Source: a virus. Taken from it: DNA of 41,372 bases. Below, in pieces: positions 25,224-31,758 of this stretch; the first letter of the stretch is position 1; every line of letters begins with the position of its first letter. Location of the stretch: the IMG/VR virus record IMGVR_UViG_3300009154_000101, positions 1 to 41,372 of that record. The stretch is one strand, 5' to 3'. The notes under the pieces are model-generated. The model was not told the DNA's origin, searched no databases, and saw nothing but the letters and a program-made list of their open reading frames with translations. The position numbers were made by a program, and so were the translations under genes.

Positions 25224-25396
25224 CAGTTGCCGTTCAAGAAATCGTGGATTGCCTCCTGGTACGCTTCGTAGGTAGGAAAACGGTCGCGCATGTTAGCGGG
25301 AACTCGCTTGTCCGCAGGAGTTGCAGTTTGCCGAATCTCGGACACAGTGTAACCCTTCTCGAGGAGGGTCTGGACGTAGGGGTTGGAGTTTTTCAT
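25223..25396 (-). CDS. Unknown small protein, first gene of a cassette-driven operon, 57 aa
   Basis: Starts at ATG 25396 (MKNSNPYVQTLLEKGYTVSE), 6 nt after the -10 box of promoter cassette 1; the frame is open further upstream through the promoter, but those codons are promoter sequence. It contains a possible helix-turn-helix-like stretch 'LLEKGYTVSEIRQTAT' and ends AYQEAIHDFLNGN. Function unknown. No Shine-Dalgarno sequence, as expected for a leaderless mRNA. Confidence 0.65.
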   Translation of the reverse strand: MKNSNPYVQTLLEKGYTVSEIRQTATPADKRVPANMRDRFPTYEAYQEAIHDFLNGN

Positions 25397-25469
25397 GACT
25401 TTATTATGGCTCATTTTGGGGAAAAAGTAAAGGGGGTAAACCGGTCAACAAGGTACGGTTAACCGCCCT
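25397..25469 (-). promoter_or_regulatory. Terminator-promoter cassette 1
   Basis: Minus strand: GGGCGGTTAACCGTACC hairpin, second hairpin ending in CCCCCTTT, then -35 TTTACT (25426-25431), 17-nt spacer, -10 CATAAT (25403-25408), 6 nt, ATG (25396). The predicted transcription start is the A of the ATG. Confidence 0.75.
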
Positions 25470-25763: not shown

Positions 25764-26069
25764 TTAGGCGGCAACCTTAGCGTCAACTTGGGCCATCTCG
25801 ATCCACTGCTCAAGCCAGCACTTGGTGGTAGTGAATTTTACGGTTTTGGTTTGCTTGAGCTTTCCGAAGATCCTGGAGAAGATGCTGAACGTAACGTCGT
25901 AACAGTGGTTTGCGACTTTAACCGCACACATTTCGGTCGCACCGTTGAAGTGTGTAATTTCCGCCGTGATGGTGTCGCCGTCACGAATGACGCTCAAGGA
26001 CCAAAGGTTGTTTGGGATGGCGACCAGGCAGCGGTCGGTGGTGGAGAGGGTGGAGTAGCTTTGATTCAT
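25764..26069 (-). CDS. Unknown protein, 101 aa
   Basis: Start at ATG 26069 (MNQSYSTLSTTDRCLVAIPN) directly after promoter cassette 2. A beta-rich first half, NNLWSLSVIRDGDTITAEIT and MCAVKVANHCYDVTFSIFSR, followed by a basic helix (FGKLKQTKTVKFTTTKCWLE). Not recognised. Next gene, if real, starts 26 nt downstream. Confidence 0.65.
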   Translation of the reverse strand: MNQSYSTLSTTDRCLVAIPNNLWSLSVIRDGDTITAEITHFNGATEMCAVKVANHCYDVTFSIFSRIFGKLKQTKTVKFTTTKCWLEQWIEMAQVDAKVAA

Positions 26070-26142
26070 GACTTTATTATGGCTCATTTTGTCTGGGAAG
26101 TAAAGGGGGTAAACCGCCCAGAAAAGGGCGGGAAACCGCCCT
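26070..26142 (-). promoter_or_regulatory. Terminator-promoter cassette 2
   Basis: Minus strand: perfect terminator (26121-26142), second hairpin, -35 TTTACT (26099-26104), 17-nt spacer, -10 CATAAT (26076-26081), 6 nt, ATG 26069. The -35 to ATG part is almost identical to cassette 1. Confidence 0.78.
26121..26142 (-). terminator. Rho-independent terminator of the 79-aa gene
   Basis: Minus-strand RNA stem GGGCGG/CCGCCC (26136-26141 with 26126-26131), loop of 4 nt, then UUUU. It lies 6 nt after the stop of the winged-helix gene. Confidence 0.8.
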
Positions 26143-26449: not shown

Positions 26450-26638
26450 CTACTCGGCGGCCATCCAGGCGTCGATGGCGTGCTCGGCGATCTCCTCGTC
26501 AGATACTCCGGCGAACCGGGGATCGTTCAGGATAAAGTTCACCTCGGCTATGGCCTCGTCGCGGCAGTCCCATCCAGCGCCGTGCTCGGCCCAGGCGTCG
26601 ACCATATCCATAATCAGTTCAAATCGGTTCATTTCCAT
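26450..26638 (-). CDS. Unknown acidic protein, 62 aa
   Basis: Starts at ATG 26638 (MEMNRFELIMDMVDAWAEHG) right after cassette 4, or two codons later. Acidic and helical, with GWDCRDEAIAEVNFILNDPR and GVSDEEIAEHAIDAWMAAE, where the 'AWAE..~ / ~~D~~IaE~a~d.W' repetition suggests two similar helices. Function unknown. Single-gene transcription unit. Confidence 0.65.
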   Translation of the reverse strand: MEMNRFELIMDMVDAWAEHGAGWDCRDEAIAEVNFILNDPRFAGVSDEEIAEHAIDAWMAAE

Positions 26639-26711
26639 GCTATAAGCATAACTCACTTTGCCGGTTTTCGAAAGGGGGTAGACCGCCCTAAAAGGTACGG
26701 TTAACCGCCCT
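26639..26711 (-). promoter_or_regulatory. Terminator-promoter cassette 4
   Basis: Minus strand: GGGCGGTTAACCGTACC hairpin, GGGCGG...CCCCCTTT hairpin, -35 TTTCGA (26668-26673), 17-nt spacer, -10 TATGCT (26645-26650), 6 nt, ATG 26638. Confidence 0.75.
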
Positions 26712-26935
26712 CAGTGAAGGACGGATTCGGTGATCATGACGCCGCCGTACACGTACACAACCGTGTCCTCGAAAAGGCGCTCATCCACCGGAACTTCGAG
26801 CGACTGAAGGTGAGAAACCATTTCCTCAGCAAGCTCACGGTCGGTATAGACCGAGTGGAACTCGTAGCTGTCGTAGAAGTCGGTACCCTTGGTCAGGACG
26901 ACGTAGACGGTCATGGAAGCGGTTTCGTTTTTCAT
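26711..26935 (-). CDS. Unknown protein, 74 aa
   Basis: Starts at ATG 26935 (MKNETASMTVYVVLTKGTDF) after cassette 5. It has a ferredoxin-like or split strand-helix-strand pattern: TVYVVLTKGTDFYDSYEFHS, VYTDRELAEEMVSHLQSLEV, TVVYVYGGVMITESVLH. The 'vyvVl....~y.~~~v~~vy.d.e.Ae~~~~~l' pattern is common in small phage proteins of unknown function. Its stop lies at the first base of cassette 4. Confidence 0.65.
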   Translation of the reverse strand: MKNETASMTVYVVLTKGTDFYDSYEFHSVYTDRELAEEMVSHLQSLEVPVDERLFEDTVVYVYGGVMITESVLH

Positions 26936-27008
26936 ACCTTTATTATGGCGCGTTTTGCCGGTTTTCGAAAGGGGGCGAACCGCCCTTTAAGGTACGGTTA
27001 ACCGCCCT
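26936..27008 (-). promoter_or_regulatory. Terminator-promoter cassette 5
   Basis: Minus strand: GGGCGGTTAACCGTACC hairpin (the TAA of the kinase gene is part of it), second hairpin, -35 TTTCGA (26965-26970), 17-nt spacer, -10 CATAAT (26942-26947), 6 nt, ATG 26935. Confidence 0.75.
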
Positions 27009-27744
27009 GGGCCTCAGCCAGTAGGCGGGCCAGGAGCTGGTCCACCGCCGGGTGTTGGGCGCCGGGTCGGTACTTGCGCAGGCGGACCACGTGCGACATC
27101 TCAGCTGCCAGGGCCTGGTTCCACAGGGGTTCGCCCAGCCTTTGGCGGAGGTGGGCGCAGAGAGGCGCAGGGTCGCCCCCAGGGTGTGAGTTAAACAATC
27201 GGTGGTAATCGCTGTGCACAGACTGAAGCAGTTTGCCCAAGTCAAGAACGTATGACTGGAACAAATTCTGCTTGAAGTTGGGGTCGATCAGAACGATTCC
27301 CCCATTATTTTCCACGATTACGTTTTCCAGGGTCAGATCACCGTGCGAGAACGAGGAAGGGGGATCAGAAGTATTATCGAGGAATTCGAAAATCCGTCGA
27401 ACTATTTGACTGTCAGTTTGGGAAACATGCTCTGAATATAAACGCTTTATGTAGGACTCCCAATTTGATTCTCGTATGGGTGGAACCTTCGACCACACCA
27501 GAATTTGATCGACGAGAGTGTCGATTAGTCGAGTGGATTCAGTCTGAGTTCCGCAATTTCCTTCGACAAATTCAATGTCGTACTCCTCGTCTGAAATGCA
27601 AATGGTTTGGGGGAGACGAATTCCTGGCGCCAGAAGATACCGAGAAGCAATGCGAAACCAATCACATTGCTCAGCGGCATCTTTGCACTTCTTGCGAATG
27701 AAATCCCCTGAGAAATCCAGGGTCGCTCCACTACTTCCCTTCAC
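26998..27744 (-). CDS. APH/choline-kinase-like small-molecule kinase
   Basis: 248 aa from GTG 27744 (an upstream ATG at 27780 is possible but overlaps the nucleotidyltransferase by 50 nt; GGGAG precedes the GTG). The N-terminus carries a glycine loop KGSSGATL and FIRKK with the likely nucleotide-binding Lys. The catalytic loop is FSHGDLTLENVIVENNGGIV (HGDxxxxN) and the metal-binding Asp follows in LIDPNFK. This is the aminoglycoside phosphotransferase/choline kinase fold; it phosphorylates a small molecule, often a sugar, choline or ethanolamine. It overlaps the nucleotidyltransferase gene, and with the HAD gene forms a set seen in capsule gene clusters. The substrate cannot be told. The last codons are GC-rich, unlike the first half. 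Confidence 0.8.
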   Translation of the reverse strand: MKGSSGATLDFSGDFIRKKCKDAAEQCDWFRIASRYLLAPGIRLPQTICISDEEYDIEFVEGNCGTQTESTRLIDTLVDQILVWSKVPPIRESNWESYIKRLYSEHVSQTDSQIVRRIFEFLDNTSDPPSSFSHGDLTLENVIVENNGGIVLIDPNFKQNLFQSYVLDLGKLLQSVHSDYHRLFNSHPGGDPAPLCAHLRQRLGEPLWNQALAAEMSHVVRLRKYRPGAQHPAVDQLLARLLAEAQGG

Positions 27745-28444
27745 GAACAAGCTCCCGAATCCGAGCGCAATCGGCCTCATAAGTTAGGTCGCCCCAGGAA
27801 ATCCCCAACTTGTATAAGTCCAGTGAACATCGGCAATGCGACATGTTGATCATGTCGGTGATTTCGATTTCGCCGCGATCGCTCTTCCGGAGTTCACCAA
27901 TCGTGTTTAAGTAGTTTCGGGGAAAACACACAAAACCGCAGAAGTATTTACCCTCAAGCTGACCGTGAGGTTTTTCCACAACGTAGTCTTCAACCACTGC
28001 CGCAAGCTGGAGGTTGCGTGGATTCAACCCTTTGTCTAGAGTTGTGAACCACACGTCCCTGTCGTGCTCCGAGCCAATGACTGCCCGAACTGACATCGGA
28101 AGTTTCCCCGAGTAAAAGTTGTCGCCAAACAAGACTGTAAACGGATCGTTGATTACGCCAGCCCACGTGGTAATAGCCGCCCCAGGCCCGTAAGTATCCT
28201 CACTTTGAAAACGAACAATCGGGTCACAAATCTTTGACACTTCGTCAAGAACAGGGTGGTAGATTCGTGCCCCATCGGTCTTCACCGCCGAGCGTGAAAG
28301 AGTCAAGTAGATGTTTTCTGCCCCGTTGTCCAAGGCGAACAGTGCCGCCAGGTAGGGAAGTGACATGCCGTCAAACTTTTCCTCAAGTTTGTTTCGGCCG
28401 AACCGGGTGCTACGACCGGCTGCTAGAATCAGTGCGTTCTTCAT
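27731..28444 (-). CDS. Sugar-type nucleotidyltransferase
   Basis: 237 aa from ATG 28444 (MKNALILAAGRSTRFGRNKL), which overlaps the HAD stop at ATGA. The N-terminal LILAAGRSTRFGRNKLEEKF is the nucleotide-binding signature of the RmlA/GlmU/LicC superfamily ('~iLAAG.g.R~g..K~~~~~~G'). Further on, TYGPGAAITTWAGV with a GPG..~~~~ loop, then VLFGDNFYSG with the metal-binding Asp, VVEDYVVEKP, and FCGFVCFPRNY ('~.G~~~f'). It should transfer NMP from an NTP to a phosphorylated sugar or alcohol, for example to the product of the adjacent kinase. Context (BcbF-like HAD before, kinase after) resembles bacterial capsule modules. Confidence 0.82.
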   Translation of the reverse strand: MKNALILAAGRSTRFGRNKLEEKFDGMSLPYLAALFALDNGAENIYLTLSRSAVKTDGARIYHPVLDEVSKICDPIVRFQSEDTYGPGAAITTWAGVINDPFTVLFGDNFYSGKLPMSVRAVIGSEHDRDVWFTTLDKGLNPRNLQLAAVVEDYVVEKPHGQLEGKYFCGFVCFPRNYLNTIGELRKSDRGEIEITDMINMSHCRCSLDLYKLGISWGDLTYEADCARIRELVREGK

Positions 28445-28797
28445 TGTGCGATTTCTTTGTATTTTGCAGCGAACTGACCGGGAGTCATTGCTTTGTCGTC
28501 CACGTAATATGCCGCCCAAGTCTTTCCAATCTGGATAGAGTCGTAGGGCACATCGAATTTAGTGCAGAACTTTTCGATTTCCTCGATAACTTCTTCGCGC
28601 ACACTTTCGATATCTCCGCTTGATCGACCCATACCACGGGCGGTATGAAGTACGATCGTCCACCCTTTTTCTTTCAGTGCTCGCATACCAACGATTACTT
28701 CCATCATTGGTCGCGAATTATCATAGTCACGATTCTGAGTCTTAAGGATCGTGTCGTCAACATCAAAGACGATTGTTTTCTTCGGGTCGGAAATCAT
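28441..28797 (-). CDS. HAD phosphatase, BcbF/EcbF capsule-biosynthesis type
   Basis: 118 aa from ATG 28797. Motif I is KKTIVFDVDDTIL (D12, D14); motif II is WTIVLHTARGMGRSSGDIES with Thr in HTAR; the later part has FDVPYDSIQIGKTWAAYYVD then DKAMTPGQFAAKY. The order 'R.m....g.i......~~~~l~~~~ipYDei~~gKPw~.~yVDDkai.p~ef' is the hallmark of BcbF/EcbF phosphatases from Pasteurella-type capsule clusters. It would dephosphorylate a sugar-phosphate intermediate. First gene of a three-gene operon (HAD, nucleotidyltransferase, kinase), each overlapping the next. Confidence 0.85.
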   Translation of the reverse strand: MISDPKKTIVFDVDDTILKTQNRDYDNSRPMMEVIVGMRALKEKGWTIVLHTARGMGRSSGDIESVREEVIEEIEKFCTKFDVPYDSIQIGKTWAAYYVDDKAMTPGQFAAKYKEIAQ

Positions 28798-28874: not shown

Positions 28875-29705
28875 TCACTTGTTCACCGAAATCGTTTCGT
28901 AAGTAGTTGGCTTGAGTCGAATCTCAGAATACCGGGACAACCATTCGTCTTTCGTCCTTCGCGATTTGGGACTTGCCAGCTCGGGGAACTCGGCGCAAAT
29001 CTTTTCAACGGTCTTGTTGTTCACGTCAAGTTTTCGCTCGAGATCCTCACACGTTCCGCCTACACCCGTGTGCTGTTTTGCTTTCACACAAACGTGATCA
29101 AACCGAAGCGTTCCGTTTCCGTGTACAGTGTGGTAAAGCGACAGGAAATAGTCATCCTTCATACTGTACTCCGTAATTCGCTCAAAGGCAGGGTCGCCCG
29201 CATAAAAACCAAAAGCGTGACCCATGACAAACTTCAAACCAGTGGTGATCTTCGGGTGTAGAAAACCTTTATTGCGAACTGCGTAGAAACCAAACAAACC
29301 GATATTGCGCCGACTGCTCAATCGGAATCCCCTCTCAATTAGGTCCGAAAGATCATCCACGGTTTTCAGGCGGCAGGGGTGGTCAAGCGGTTTCTGAGTG
29401 CCCTCCAGCTCTTTCAGGAGTTCAAGTTCCTCGACGGCGCTAACATCGTCGTCAAAGGAGAAAACAGGGGTTCCTTTGTCGTAATAGTTGGAAATGAAGT
29501 GGCGTTGATTGGTCAAACCCTTTTCACCAACGACGATATTGTACGCGGGGTTTGAACTTTGATATTTTTCCTTTTCCTCGCTGTTGGCGACGAACAAAGT
29601 CACGCGGGACAGGTCCACATCAGTTTTTTCAAGATAATTCAGAGTCAGTTTCTTTACTCCGTCCGGCCTTCCGTAAGTTGGGATAGCAATCTGATAATCA
29701 GGCAT
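28875..29705 (-). CDS. TET/JBP-associated DNA glycosyltransferase (TAGT-like, GT-A fold)
   Basis: 276 aa from ATG 29705, overlapping the dioxygenase stop by 8 nt. The N-terminus YQIAIPTYGRPDGVKKLTLN is a GT-A start; VVGEKGLTNQRHFISNYYDK then GTPVFSFDDDVSAVEEL contains the 'G...~R~.i~......~~~~~DDD~' block with DDD at residues 85-87, which binds metal and the sugar-nucleotide. Further conserved parts are NIGLFGFYAVRNKGFL and SMKDDYFLSLYHTVHGNG. These features match the glycosyltransferases found beside TET/JBP enzymes in phages, which add sugars to hydroxymethyl-pyrimidines in DNA. Co-translation with the dioxygenase supports this. Sugar donor unknown. Confidence 0.82.
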   Translation of the reverse strand: MPDYQIAIPTYGRPDGVKKLTLNYLEKTDVDLSRVTLFVANSEEKEKYQSSNPAYNIVVGEKGLTNQRHFISNYYDKGTPVFSFDDDVSAVEELELLKELEGTQKPLDHPCRLKTVDDLSDLIERGFRLSSRRNIGLFGFYAVRNKGFLHPKITTGLKFVMGHAFGFYAGDPAFERITEYSMKDDYFLSLYHTVHGNGTLRFDHVCVKAKQHTGVGGTCEDLERKLDVNNKTVEKICAEFPELASPKSRRTKDEWLSRYSEIRLKPTTYETISVNK

Positions 29706-31062
29706 TGGTTGTGTCCAGGGATCCTTTGATGTTTGTATTGGAACAACGTTCCATGTTTTGCTTTTCCTTGTAGGCCATCCATTCGGGGCTGGACCACATG
29801 CCGGGAAAAGATCCGGCCCATTTCGCTTCACCATTTCCCCGATCGGGGTGGTTGTCGCGAACGTAATCCAGGAACTTTCTGCGACAGATTTCGCACTCTA
29901 GATCATCCAGCAGAATGATTGAGTCCCGCTGATAGAACACCAGAGTCAGGTTCTCTGCGCCCTCTTCCTGGGCTACGAACTCAGTTTGTCCGTGAACGTA
30001 CCCTTGATTATCCCCGATCAGAATGTCGCCGTGACGCATATGAAAAGCGTAACCAAGTTCAGGCATTACGAAATCCATGCCTTCGTAGTTTCCGCTCTCG
30101 AATGTAACCAGGGCGGCTACTGCGTCCTTGGCGTTGTTTCCGTCAAGGTGGTAGAAAGTGGGGAAGTTATAGTTGCAGGTGATCGAGGTGTAAATGGTTC
30201 CGAACAAGTTGTAACGCTCGTCCTTCACTTTCTGGAACCGATCGGAAAGAACTTTGCCTTCTGCCGGAAAGAGTTGTTTCACCAGGCCGTCCACCTCTTT
30301 GTAGAAGTCGGCGAAAGATGCGAAGTCTTCGTAACGCTCCATGGTCGGGGAAGTTAGTCGTCCGAACGGGGTTCGCCCGCTCCGGTCAATCGTTCCAAGA
30401 ACAGCGGAGAAAGTTTTGTTTGAGCGCGGCTGCTTCGTAATGAAAATCTTCTTGAACTCTTTGGTAGCAGGAATCTTCGCCTCGGTAACCGCCCACACAG
30501 TGCGTAGCCACTTCTCAAACCACGCGAGTTTGGCTTTGTTGCGATTGGCAATTGCCTCTTTACGAGCGTCGAACGGTGTGCTCTTCTTGCGAACAATGGA
30601 GTCCCACCTCTCAACCTCTTCCAGATCAACGTAACCAGCTTTCTCGGCTTTGCCGACGTAGTAGGTTGTGCGAGATGGGCGAGTGTCAGAGTTAAGGATC
30701 TCGAGGGCTTCATCAAGAGTTGAGACCAACCCTTTCAGAGCACGCCTCAGAAACTCGTTCTGACCGTAAGTTGTGCGGATTTCAACGTTCGTGTAGATTT
30801 CTTTACCGGATGCCATACCCCTCTGGTCGGACAGAAGGGAGCGGCAAGCCCAACGCCAGTACTCATAATCTTTCGTGCCAGGGGTGATTTTTTTCGCTGC
30901 TTCCACTGCATTCTTTCGGAAGGCTACCACAAGAGTGCCATCGGGAGCAAACACGTCGCAATCCTCGTCGATCAACTCGTGGCAATCTGAGAGGGTTGGG
31001 CGCTCGCCGAGTCGGTCTTTGTCGAAAGGCAGAAGCTCAGTTAATCGTATAGTTCTTACCAT
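29698..31062 (-). CDS. TET/JBP-family 2-oxoglutarate/Fe(II) dioxygenase (DNA pyrimidine hydroxylase)
   Basis: 454 aa. The double-stranded beta-helix core is at ~290-382: YTSITCNYNFPTFYHLDGNN with the iron ligands H305 and D307, AAVALVTFESGNYEGM-type segment (AVAALVTFESGNYEGMDFVM), PELGYAFHMRHGDILIGDNQ and GYVHGQTEF with the distal iron ligand H357; R379 in LVFYQRD probably binds 2-oxoglutarate. The order 'f.~h.D..n......~~t~..G.~.G.~~~~Pelg.a~.~..GD~l~~.~...HG' is that of TET/JBP enzymes, which oxidise the methyl group of 5-methylcytosine or thymine in DNA. The N-terminal ~280 residues are helical; the C-terminus has a Cys pair in LECEICRRKF. Followed by the TAGT-type glycosyltransferase in the same operon. 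Whether cytosine or thymine is the substrate is open. Confidence 0.88.
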   Translation of the reverse strand: MVRTIRLTELLPFDKDRLGERPTLSDCHELIDEDCDVFAPDGTLVVAFRKNAVEAAKKITPGTKDYEYWRWACRSLLSDQRGMASGKEIYTNVEIRTTYGQNEFLRRALKGLVSTLDEALEILNSDTRPSRTTYYVGKAEKAGYVDLEEVERWDSIVRKKSTPFDARKEAIANRNKAKLAWFEKWLRTVWAVTEAKIPATKEFKKIFITKQPRSNKTFSAVLGTIDRSGRTPFGRLTSPTMERYEDFASFADFYKEVDGLVKQLFPAEGKVLSDRFQKVKDERYNLFGTIYTSITCNYNFPTFYHLDGNNAKDAVAALVTFESGNYEGMDFVMPELGYAFHMRHGDILIGDNQGYVHGQTEFVAQEEGAENLTLVFYQRDSIILLDDLECEICRRKFLDYVRDNHPDRGNGEAKWAGSFPGMWSSPEWMAYKEKQNMERCSNTNIKGSLDTTNA

Positions 31063-31158: not shown

Positions 31159-31758
31159 TCACTGCTCGTATTCGTAAGTTTCAAAAGCGGAGTTCAAGAT
31201 CGCCTTCATCCTGTGAGCAATATCGAGGTCTTTACCGCAGTAGATCGTGGTCTTGAGCATGTCGCAGTAGACTTCCGGCTCTTCTTTGGTAACGGCAACA
31301 TCGTGGAAGTTGACTCGGTACTTCATACCAGTCTCTTCGCAAAGCTGGTTGATTTGTCGAGCTTTCTCGATGAAGTTTTGACCGTGACCTTTGATGCCGT
31401 CGTCCTGACCGATCTGATCCAACCATTTGTGAACCATTTCGTGAAGCAAGGTGCTTCGGACTTGGGTTGGATCGACCGCCGCTACTTTGGCGATCTTGAT
31501 CATTCCTGCGCCCCGTGTCCGGGAAGGCTTGTATTGCCCCCACAGTTTGCGAAACCGGCCTTCCCATTTCAGCTCAGGGTAAATATTGCGCTTATCCCCG
31601 TTCGCGTCAGTCTTCTCGATTACTCGAAGAACTCGAAGTTTTCCGTCGAAGTACTTGGCGTTGAACTCTGCGTACAACTCACCGAGGTCATAGATCGACG
31701 TGGTGTTTGGGCAGAATGCTTGAAAGAAAGAGGCTGAGACAGTTGTTTTGAATTGCAT
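31159..31758 (-). CDS. SprT-like zinc metallopeptidase
   Basis: 199 aa. The N-terminal IYDLGELYAEFNAKYFDGKL is the usual SprT start ('l..ly..~N..~F.g.L'), then KWEGRFRKLWGQYK. The zinc site is VRSTLLHEMVHKWLDQIG (H106, E107, H110) and DGIKGHGQNFIEKARQINQL with the third ligand near H125. SprT/Spartan-type proteases act on DNA-bound proteins in eukaryotes; phage homologues are common and mostly uncharacterised. GAGGAGA precedes the ATG at good spacing, so unlike the cassette-driven first genes this one uses a normal ribosome-binding site. Second gene of the cassette 6 operon, 12 nt after the 70-aa gene. Confidence 0.85.
   Translation of the reverse strand: MQFKTTVSASFFQAFCPNTTSIYDLGELYAEFNAKYFDGKLRVLRVIEKTDANGDKRNIYPELKWEGRFRKLWGQYKPSRTRGAGMIKIAKVAAVDPTQVRSTLLHEMVHKWLDQIGQDDGIKGHGQNFIEKARQINQLCEETGMKYRVNFHDVAVTKEEPEVYCDMLKTTIYCGKDLDIAHRMKAILNSAFETYEYEQ

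Follow-up and report, generated by a model that had tools for sequence, protein, structure and literature searches.

The window analysed here is the whole stretch of 41,372 nucleotides. Since its capsid, portal, DNA polymerase and gyrase A genes have counterparts in Synechococcus phage S-CBWM1, it is, judged by gene content, a relative of this cyanophage. On its minus strand lie three contiguous, mutually overlapping genes for a HAD phosphatase, a nucleotidyltransferase (NTase) and a kinase (the trio), as the sequence-only reading had described, and all three products matched their families. The trio is directly downstream of genes for a TET-associated glycosyltransferase (TAGT) and a TET/JBP dioxygenase, so that the biological unit extends beyond the interval 26998-28797 delimited by that reading. 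The features are as follows:

26998..27744, minus strand: APH-fold small-molecule (probably sugar) kinase (PF01636, motifs, predicted structure, PHROG families)
27731..28444, minus strand: RmlA/GlmU-like sugar-1-phosphate nucleotidyltransferase (PF12804, Arch_glmU, rmlA_long, motifs, predicted structure)
28441..28797, minus strand: EcbF/BcbF-like HAD phosphatase (TIGR01689, invariant catalytic residues, similarity to RB69ORF051c)
28875..29705, minus strand: TAGT (PF20691, phrog_842), with its start inferred at MPDYQIAIPTYG
29698..31062, minus strand: TET/JBP dioxygenase (PF12851; HxD, second His and Arg conserved)
31159..31758, minus strand: SprT-like metalloprotease (PF10263, 6e-10; homologues in the L001-L011 and S-CBWM1 loci)

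The HAD and NTase genes overlap by 4 nt, and the NTase and kinase genes by 14 nt when the corrected kinase start is used. In profile searches the HAD matched TIGR01689 (EcbF-BcbF) with an E-value of 3e-23 and 82 bits, below the curated cut-off of 162 bits; it is thus, by sequence, a relative of this family and not a curated member, and the earlier BcbF/EcbF-type label holds at the level of family relationship. Its active-site motifs (DVDDT, T52, K92 and DD) are intact, with catalytic residues invariant in an alignment of relatives. The NTase matched NTP_transf_3 (PF12804) above cut-off, as well as Arch_glmU (4e-10) and rmlA_long (6e-8), and carries the conserved motifs AAGRS.R.G.NK, FGDN, EKP and RGE.E.TD. 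Its predicted structure (pLDDT only 66) was closest to glucose-1-phosphate thymidylyltransferases and also matched inositol-1-P CTP transferase. By fold and signature motifs it is a predicted RmlA-like enzyme, scoring below every equivalog cut-off; of the earlier RmlA/LicC-like description, the RmlA/sugar part was borne out, while profiles and predicted structure were not specifically LicC-like. A LicC-type choline pathway as first choice was disfavoured by the NTase profile and fold.

The kinase, previously called APH-like, indeed matched APH (PF01636) above cut-off (E 1e-5), and its invariant HGDLTLEN and LIDPN motifs contain the APH HGD...N and IDP signatures. Its predicted structure resembled APH(2''), fructosamine kinase and RB69ORF052c, the two structure models being of moderate confidence (pLDDT 66 and 70), and it matched phrog_21938 and phrog_4098, the PHROG families of RB69ORF052c. 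For the kinase, GTG 27744 is the most likely start, in preference to ATG 27780: six aligned relatives have ACG in place of the upstream ATG, and every one of the seven clade members has GTG or ATG as codon 13, after a conserved GGGAG; the kinases of S-CBWM1 and of viral contig L098 begin at the same point (MKGSSGA). The GC-rich 3' end of the gene, taken by the sequence-only reading as a hint of mosaic origin, is real (70% GC in the last sixth). The rise is common to the clade (61-70% in relatives), and homology among these relatives extends to the stop codon; the end is therefore not a recent mosaic junction, and a recent mosaic origin of the kinase was rejected.

Upstream of the trio, the TAGT matched PF20691 above cut-off (1.5e-9) and phrog_842, a beta-glucosyl-HMC-alpha-glucosyltransferase family (4e-11), and has an invariant DDD motif. 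Its start, inferred from the alignment, overlaps the end of the TET gene by 8 nt (29698-29705). The TET/JBP dioxygenase matched PF12851 above cut-off (2.3e-15), and H305, D307, H357 and R379 are invariant in seven relatives. Between TAGT and HAD lies a gap of 77 nt containing a GC-rich hairpin; a single transcript across it is not assured, a point against the sugar-supply reading given below. Most relatives also have the SprT-like metalloprotease gene upstream of TET (in S-CBWM1 one gene intervenes), and its link to the cassette is uncertain. Downstream of the kinase, a 78-nt intergenic repeat lies between small genes in four copies (25392-25469, 26065-26142, 26634-26711 and 26931-27008), one of which abuts the kinase stop; the repeat includes a stretch resembling a hairpin and a CATAATAAAG stretch immediately ahead of start codons.

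The five genes from TET to kinase recur in S-CBWM1 in the same order (gp8-gp12), at 35-63% identity. Its gp8 (L016:3729-5165), annotated as an SNF2 DNA repair protein, is actually the TET/JBP dioxygenase, and gp9, annotated as hypothetical, is the TAGT. Searching with the NTase retrieved 15 IMG/VR contigs, to which a profile search contributed L098. TAGT, HAD, NTase and kinase were kept together in S-CBWM1 and in all 14 IMG/VR contigs covering the region, some of which are near duplicates, so that independent cases number fewer than 14; three clear levels of divergence were seen among the relatives (about 80%, 60-79% and 43-63%). In L005-L011 the TAGT-HAD-NTase-kinase block was 78-88% identical to that of the window, whereas TET was only about 40% identical and about 2 kb away, and these 20-kb loci had little else in common with the window. 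Given this conservation despite a divergent TET and backbone, TAGT and the trio behave as a unit. Two of these contigs, L009 and L010, each encode two TET paralogues (L009:3686-7048), and an R2K-clade ATP-grasp gene lies between TET and TAGT in L005 (7896-8660).

The trio was present next to TAGTs at least 58% identical to that of the window, and was not found in the available sequence around 11 TAGTs at 30-39% identity, of which only L120 and L126 have the full 6 kb on both sides. The trio does accompany TET/TAGT genes in other cyanophages, a point raised by the sequence-only reading, within one TAGT subfamily only. Another TET/TAGT cluster (L125:742-6523, TAGT 31% identical) contains a GFO/IDH/MocA oxidoreductase, an ADDT (amino acid:DNA transferase), an inositol-1-phosphate synthase, a HAD-like protein and a P-loop nucleotide kinase; by gene content, a cyclitol- or amino-acid-linked DNA modification is possible there.

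The trio was also linked to an unrelated DNA glycosyltransferase. In L098, a single 8-kb contig, it lies (NTase 59% identical) directly after a T4-type DNA alpha-glucosyltransferase (AGT) that matched PF11440 just above cut-off, phrog_2888 (1.6e-34) and the T4 AGT structure 1xv5 (3e-10). A search with this transferase yielded 15 more contigs at about 50% identity, 13 of them with downstream sequence. The gene after AGT matched the HAD profile in 13 of 13, and the same frame matched the kinase profile as well in 12. In L133 and L143, the two that were scanned, the gene after this HAD-kinase encodes an RfaE-domain-II-like nucleotidyltransferase (adenylyltransferase), and this replacement NTase of the AGT phages scores best against heptose-1-P adenylyltransferase. 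The arrangement of AGT followed by a HAD-kinase fusion recurs in L131-L145 (e.g. L143:8001-12034). Judged by these gene neighbourhoods, two independent transferase swaps tie the trio to DNA glycosylation. Sugar-metabolism genes are frequent in phages (general knowledge; PMC7824862), and the trio might be unrelated cargo that lies beside TET/TAGT by chance; this is very improbable, as the linkage persists where proteins are 43-63% identical and where backbones differ, and has formed with more than one kind of transferase.

Bacterial homologues were consistent with the capsule connection drawn by the sequence-only reading, as a matter of ancestry. Narrow NTase and HAD profiles found neither partner adjacent to 66 bacterial kinase loci, and reading of the long ORFs then showed single-chain NTase-HAD-kinase proteins in Prochlorococcus, an alphaproteobacterium, Actinomycetota and Bacteroidetes, some of whose HAD or NTase parts are weak matches or were assigned by eye. 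Such fusions lie at L069:6264-8450, L073:6231-8444, L066:5634-8429 and L083:3-1931, and the L073 fusion adjoins transaldolase and sugar-nucleotide-like genes. In viral sequences, the kinase profile picked up just two further relatives, both weak (L161 and L162). These homologues, with at least one fusion in a surface-sugar-like cluster, would fit a trio that makes an activated sugar for remodelling a host surface glycan (LPS or capsule), thereby blocking superinfection. Related kinase, NTase and HAD genes do occur in surface-sugar-like clusters, including viral contig L161, whose kinase relative has glycosyltransferase-like, epimerase-like and GHMP-like genes around it (assigned by eye). Clusters that modify capsular polysaccharides are carried by cyanophages (PMC7824862), and S-CBWM1 encodes further glycosyltransferases for which the NDP-sugar could be the donor; this last point counts, like the surface-sugar clusters, against a role in DNA modification. 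The constant neighbours of the trio, however, are DNA glycosyltransferases of two unrelated families and not surface glycosyltransferases or exporters, and the conserved block contains no tail-fibre or surface-glycan gene. We thus consider surface remodelling unlikely; it and the decoration of virion glycoproteins, both offered by the sequence-only reading, lacked positional support.

A second alternative concerns the product. Following LicC/TagD-like logic, the trio could make a CDP-alcohol or polyol phosphate, and the DNA would carry a phospho-alcohol or polyol instead of a simple sugar. The APH-fold kinases include relatives of choline kinase, the NTase model has its inositol-1-P CTP transferase match, and the L125 TET/TAGT cluster has its inositol-1-phosphate synthase. 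We nevertheless regard this product as improbable, since the NTase comes closest to the hexose-1-P thymidylyl/uridylyltransferases, the cassette showed no LicD-type phosphotransferase, and the replacement NTase of the AGT phages scores highest with the heptose-1-P adenylyltransferase profile.

The analysis showed what the genes encode, that their active-site motifs are intact, that their linkage is conserved, and that other phages have exchanged the partner transferase and the NTase. We consider it quite likely that the three genes form a nucleotide-sugar supply module dedicated to phage DNA glycosylation. The sequence-only reading had listed supply of the DNA glycosyltransferase among its options, and overall this option is strongly favoured by the conserved TAGT linkage, the linkage to an unrelated DNA alpha-glucosyltransferase and the RB69 arabinose precedent, unlike its surface, virion and mosaic suggestions. 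We infer the enzyme activities, step order, sugar identity, modified base and protective role from homology and gene context as follows. Once the DNA is replicated, TET would hydroxylate a 5-methylpyrimidine in it (5mC or T). Kinase and HAD together would convert a host sugar phosphate into a sugar-1-phosphate, the APH-fold kinase forming a bisphosphate (probably by anomeric phosphorylation) and the HAD removing the terminal phosphate, in an order modelled on heptose activation. The RmlA-like NTase would turn the sugar-1-phosphate into an NDP-sugar, from which TAGT would move the sugar onto the hydroxymethyl base, and the glycosylated DNA would be protected from host nucleases. No sugar isomerase lies in the cassette, which counts against this reading, and the SIS families (PF01380, PF13580) were absent from the window and the relatives searched; the starting compound is therefore probably a sugar phosphate of the host, for which ribose-5-phosphate or another Calvin-cycle sugar is a plausible guess.

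Comparison of the TET profile with solved structures gave no usable match on specificity for 5mC or T. A C5-methyltransferase (PF00145) was found in none of 16 records, including the complete S-CBWM1, the window record being a fragment, and a thymidylate-synthase-like hydroxy-dCMP synthase (PF00303) in none of 14. PF00303 is present in RB69 and in the AGT phages, with a thymidylate-synthase-like gene in all seven AGT contigs tested, and in L143 a C5-cytosine methylase follows the RfaE2-like nucleotidyltransferase. Since neither type of enzyme was found and S-CBWM1 is annotated with ThyX (and with dCMP deaminase), TET might hydroxylate thymine, and TAGT might attach an unusual sugar to the resulting 5-hydroxymethyluracil. 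The phage would then have a base-J-like pathway that includes a module for the sugar donor; we put this forward tentatively, with host-made 5mC as the alternative TET target.

The locus is best read as a TET/TAGT cassette for DNA modification that brings along a sugar-donor module of its own, a kind of phage DNA decoration already known. A literature search, conducted outside Burke 2021 (PNAS), Iyer 2013 (NAR) and Mahler 2025, did not return the five-gene set; the novelty of the gene combination is unproven. The cassette ties a "capsule" enzyme family to phage DNA decoration and predicts that the cultivated phage S-CBWM1 carries a glycosylated base. It also suggests a modular rule, in which an interchangeable oxygenase or synthase and an interchangeable DNA glycosyltransferase are combined with a shared HAD-kinase-NTase donor module, and which could predict the phages that synthesise the sugar donor themselves. 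Should thymine be the modified base, the pathway would parallel, in a phage, the base J of trypanosomes.

TET/TAGT clusters for phage DNA hypermodification, reportedly described by Burke and by Iyer, resemble the window in pairing a TET/JBP oxygenase with a TET-associated glycosyltransferase. According to Burke, a cytosine C5-methyltransferase is said to co-occur with them; the window differs in that none was found and in having the three-gene sugar-activation module. Activation of ADP- or GDP-heptose (HldE/GmhB, HddA/HddC) uses a kinase, a HAD-III phosphatase and a nucleotidyltransferase. The trio shares this logic, and the NTase of the AGT phages is RfaE-domain-II-like, whereas the window kinase is APH-fold and not PfkB or GHMP. 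With the bacterial capsule HADs of TIGR01689 (EcbF/BcbF) the window shares the HAD family, but it differs in its score below cut-off and its DNA-modification context.

The DNA of phage RB69 and its relative NP carries arabinose on cytosine, and an arabinose-donor role of the RB69 cluster has been proposed, not proven (PMC6024577, PMC13390438). In this proposed supply cluster, NTase and kinase are fused in one protein, accompanied by a HAD and a SIS isomerase. The window HAD is 36% identical to RB69ORF051c (phrog_1238), which itself scores 49.5 bits against TIGR01689. The window kinase is related to that of RB69 by BLAST (5e-5), PHROG families and fold, so that both HAD and kinase match PHROG families of RB69 proteins; the two NTases gave no direct BLAST match and belong to the same superfamily by profile. 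The RB69/Mosigvirus arabinosylation cluster (Thomas 2018, PMC6024577; PMC13390438) and the window thus have in common an EcbF-like HAD, an RmlA-superfamily NTase, an APH-fold kinase and, as predicted for the window, DNA glycosylation. RB69 differs by its SIS isomerase, fused NTase-kinase, hydroxylated dCMP precursor route and own transferase, whereas the window has no isomerase, TET together with TAGT, and its sugar-activating enzymes in separate genes.
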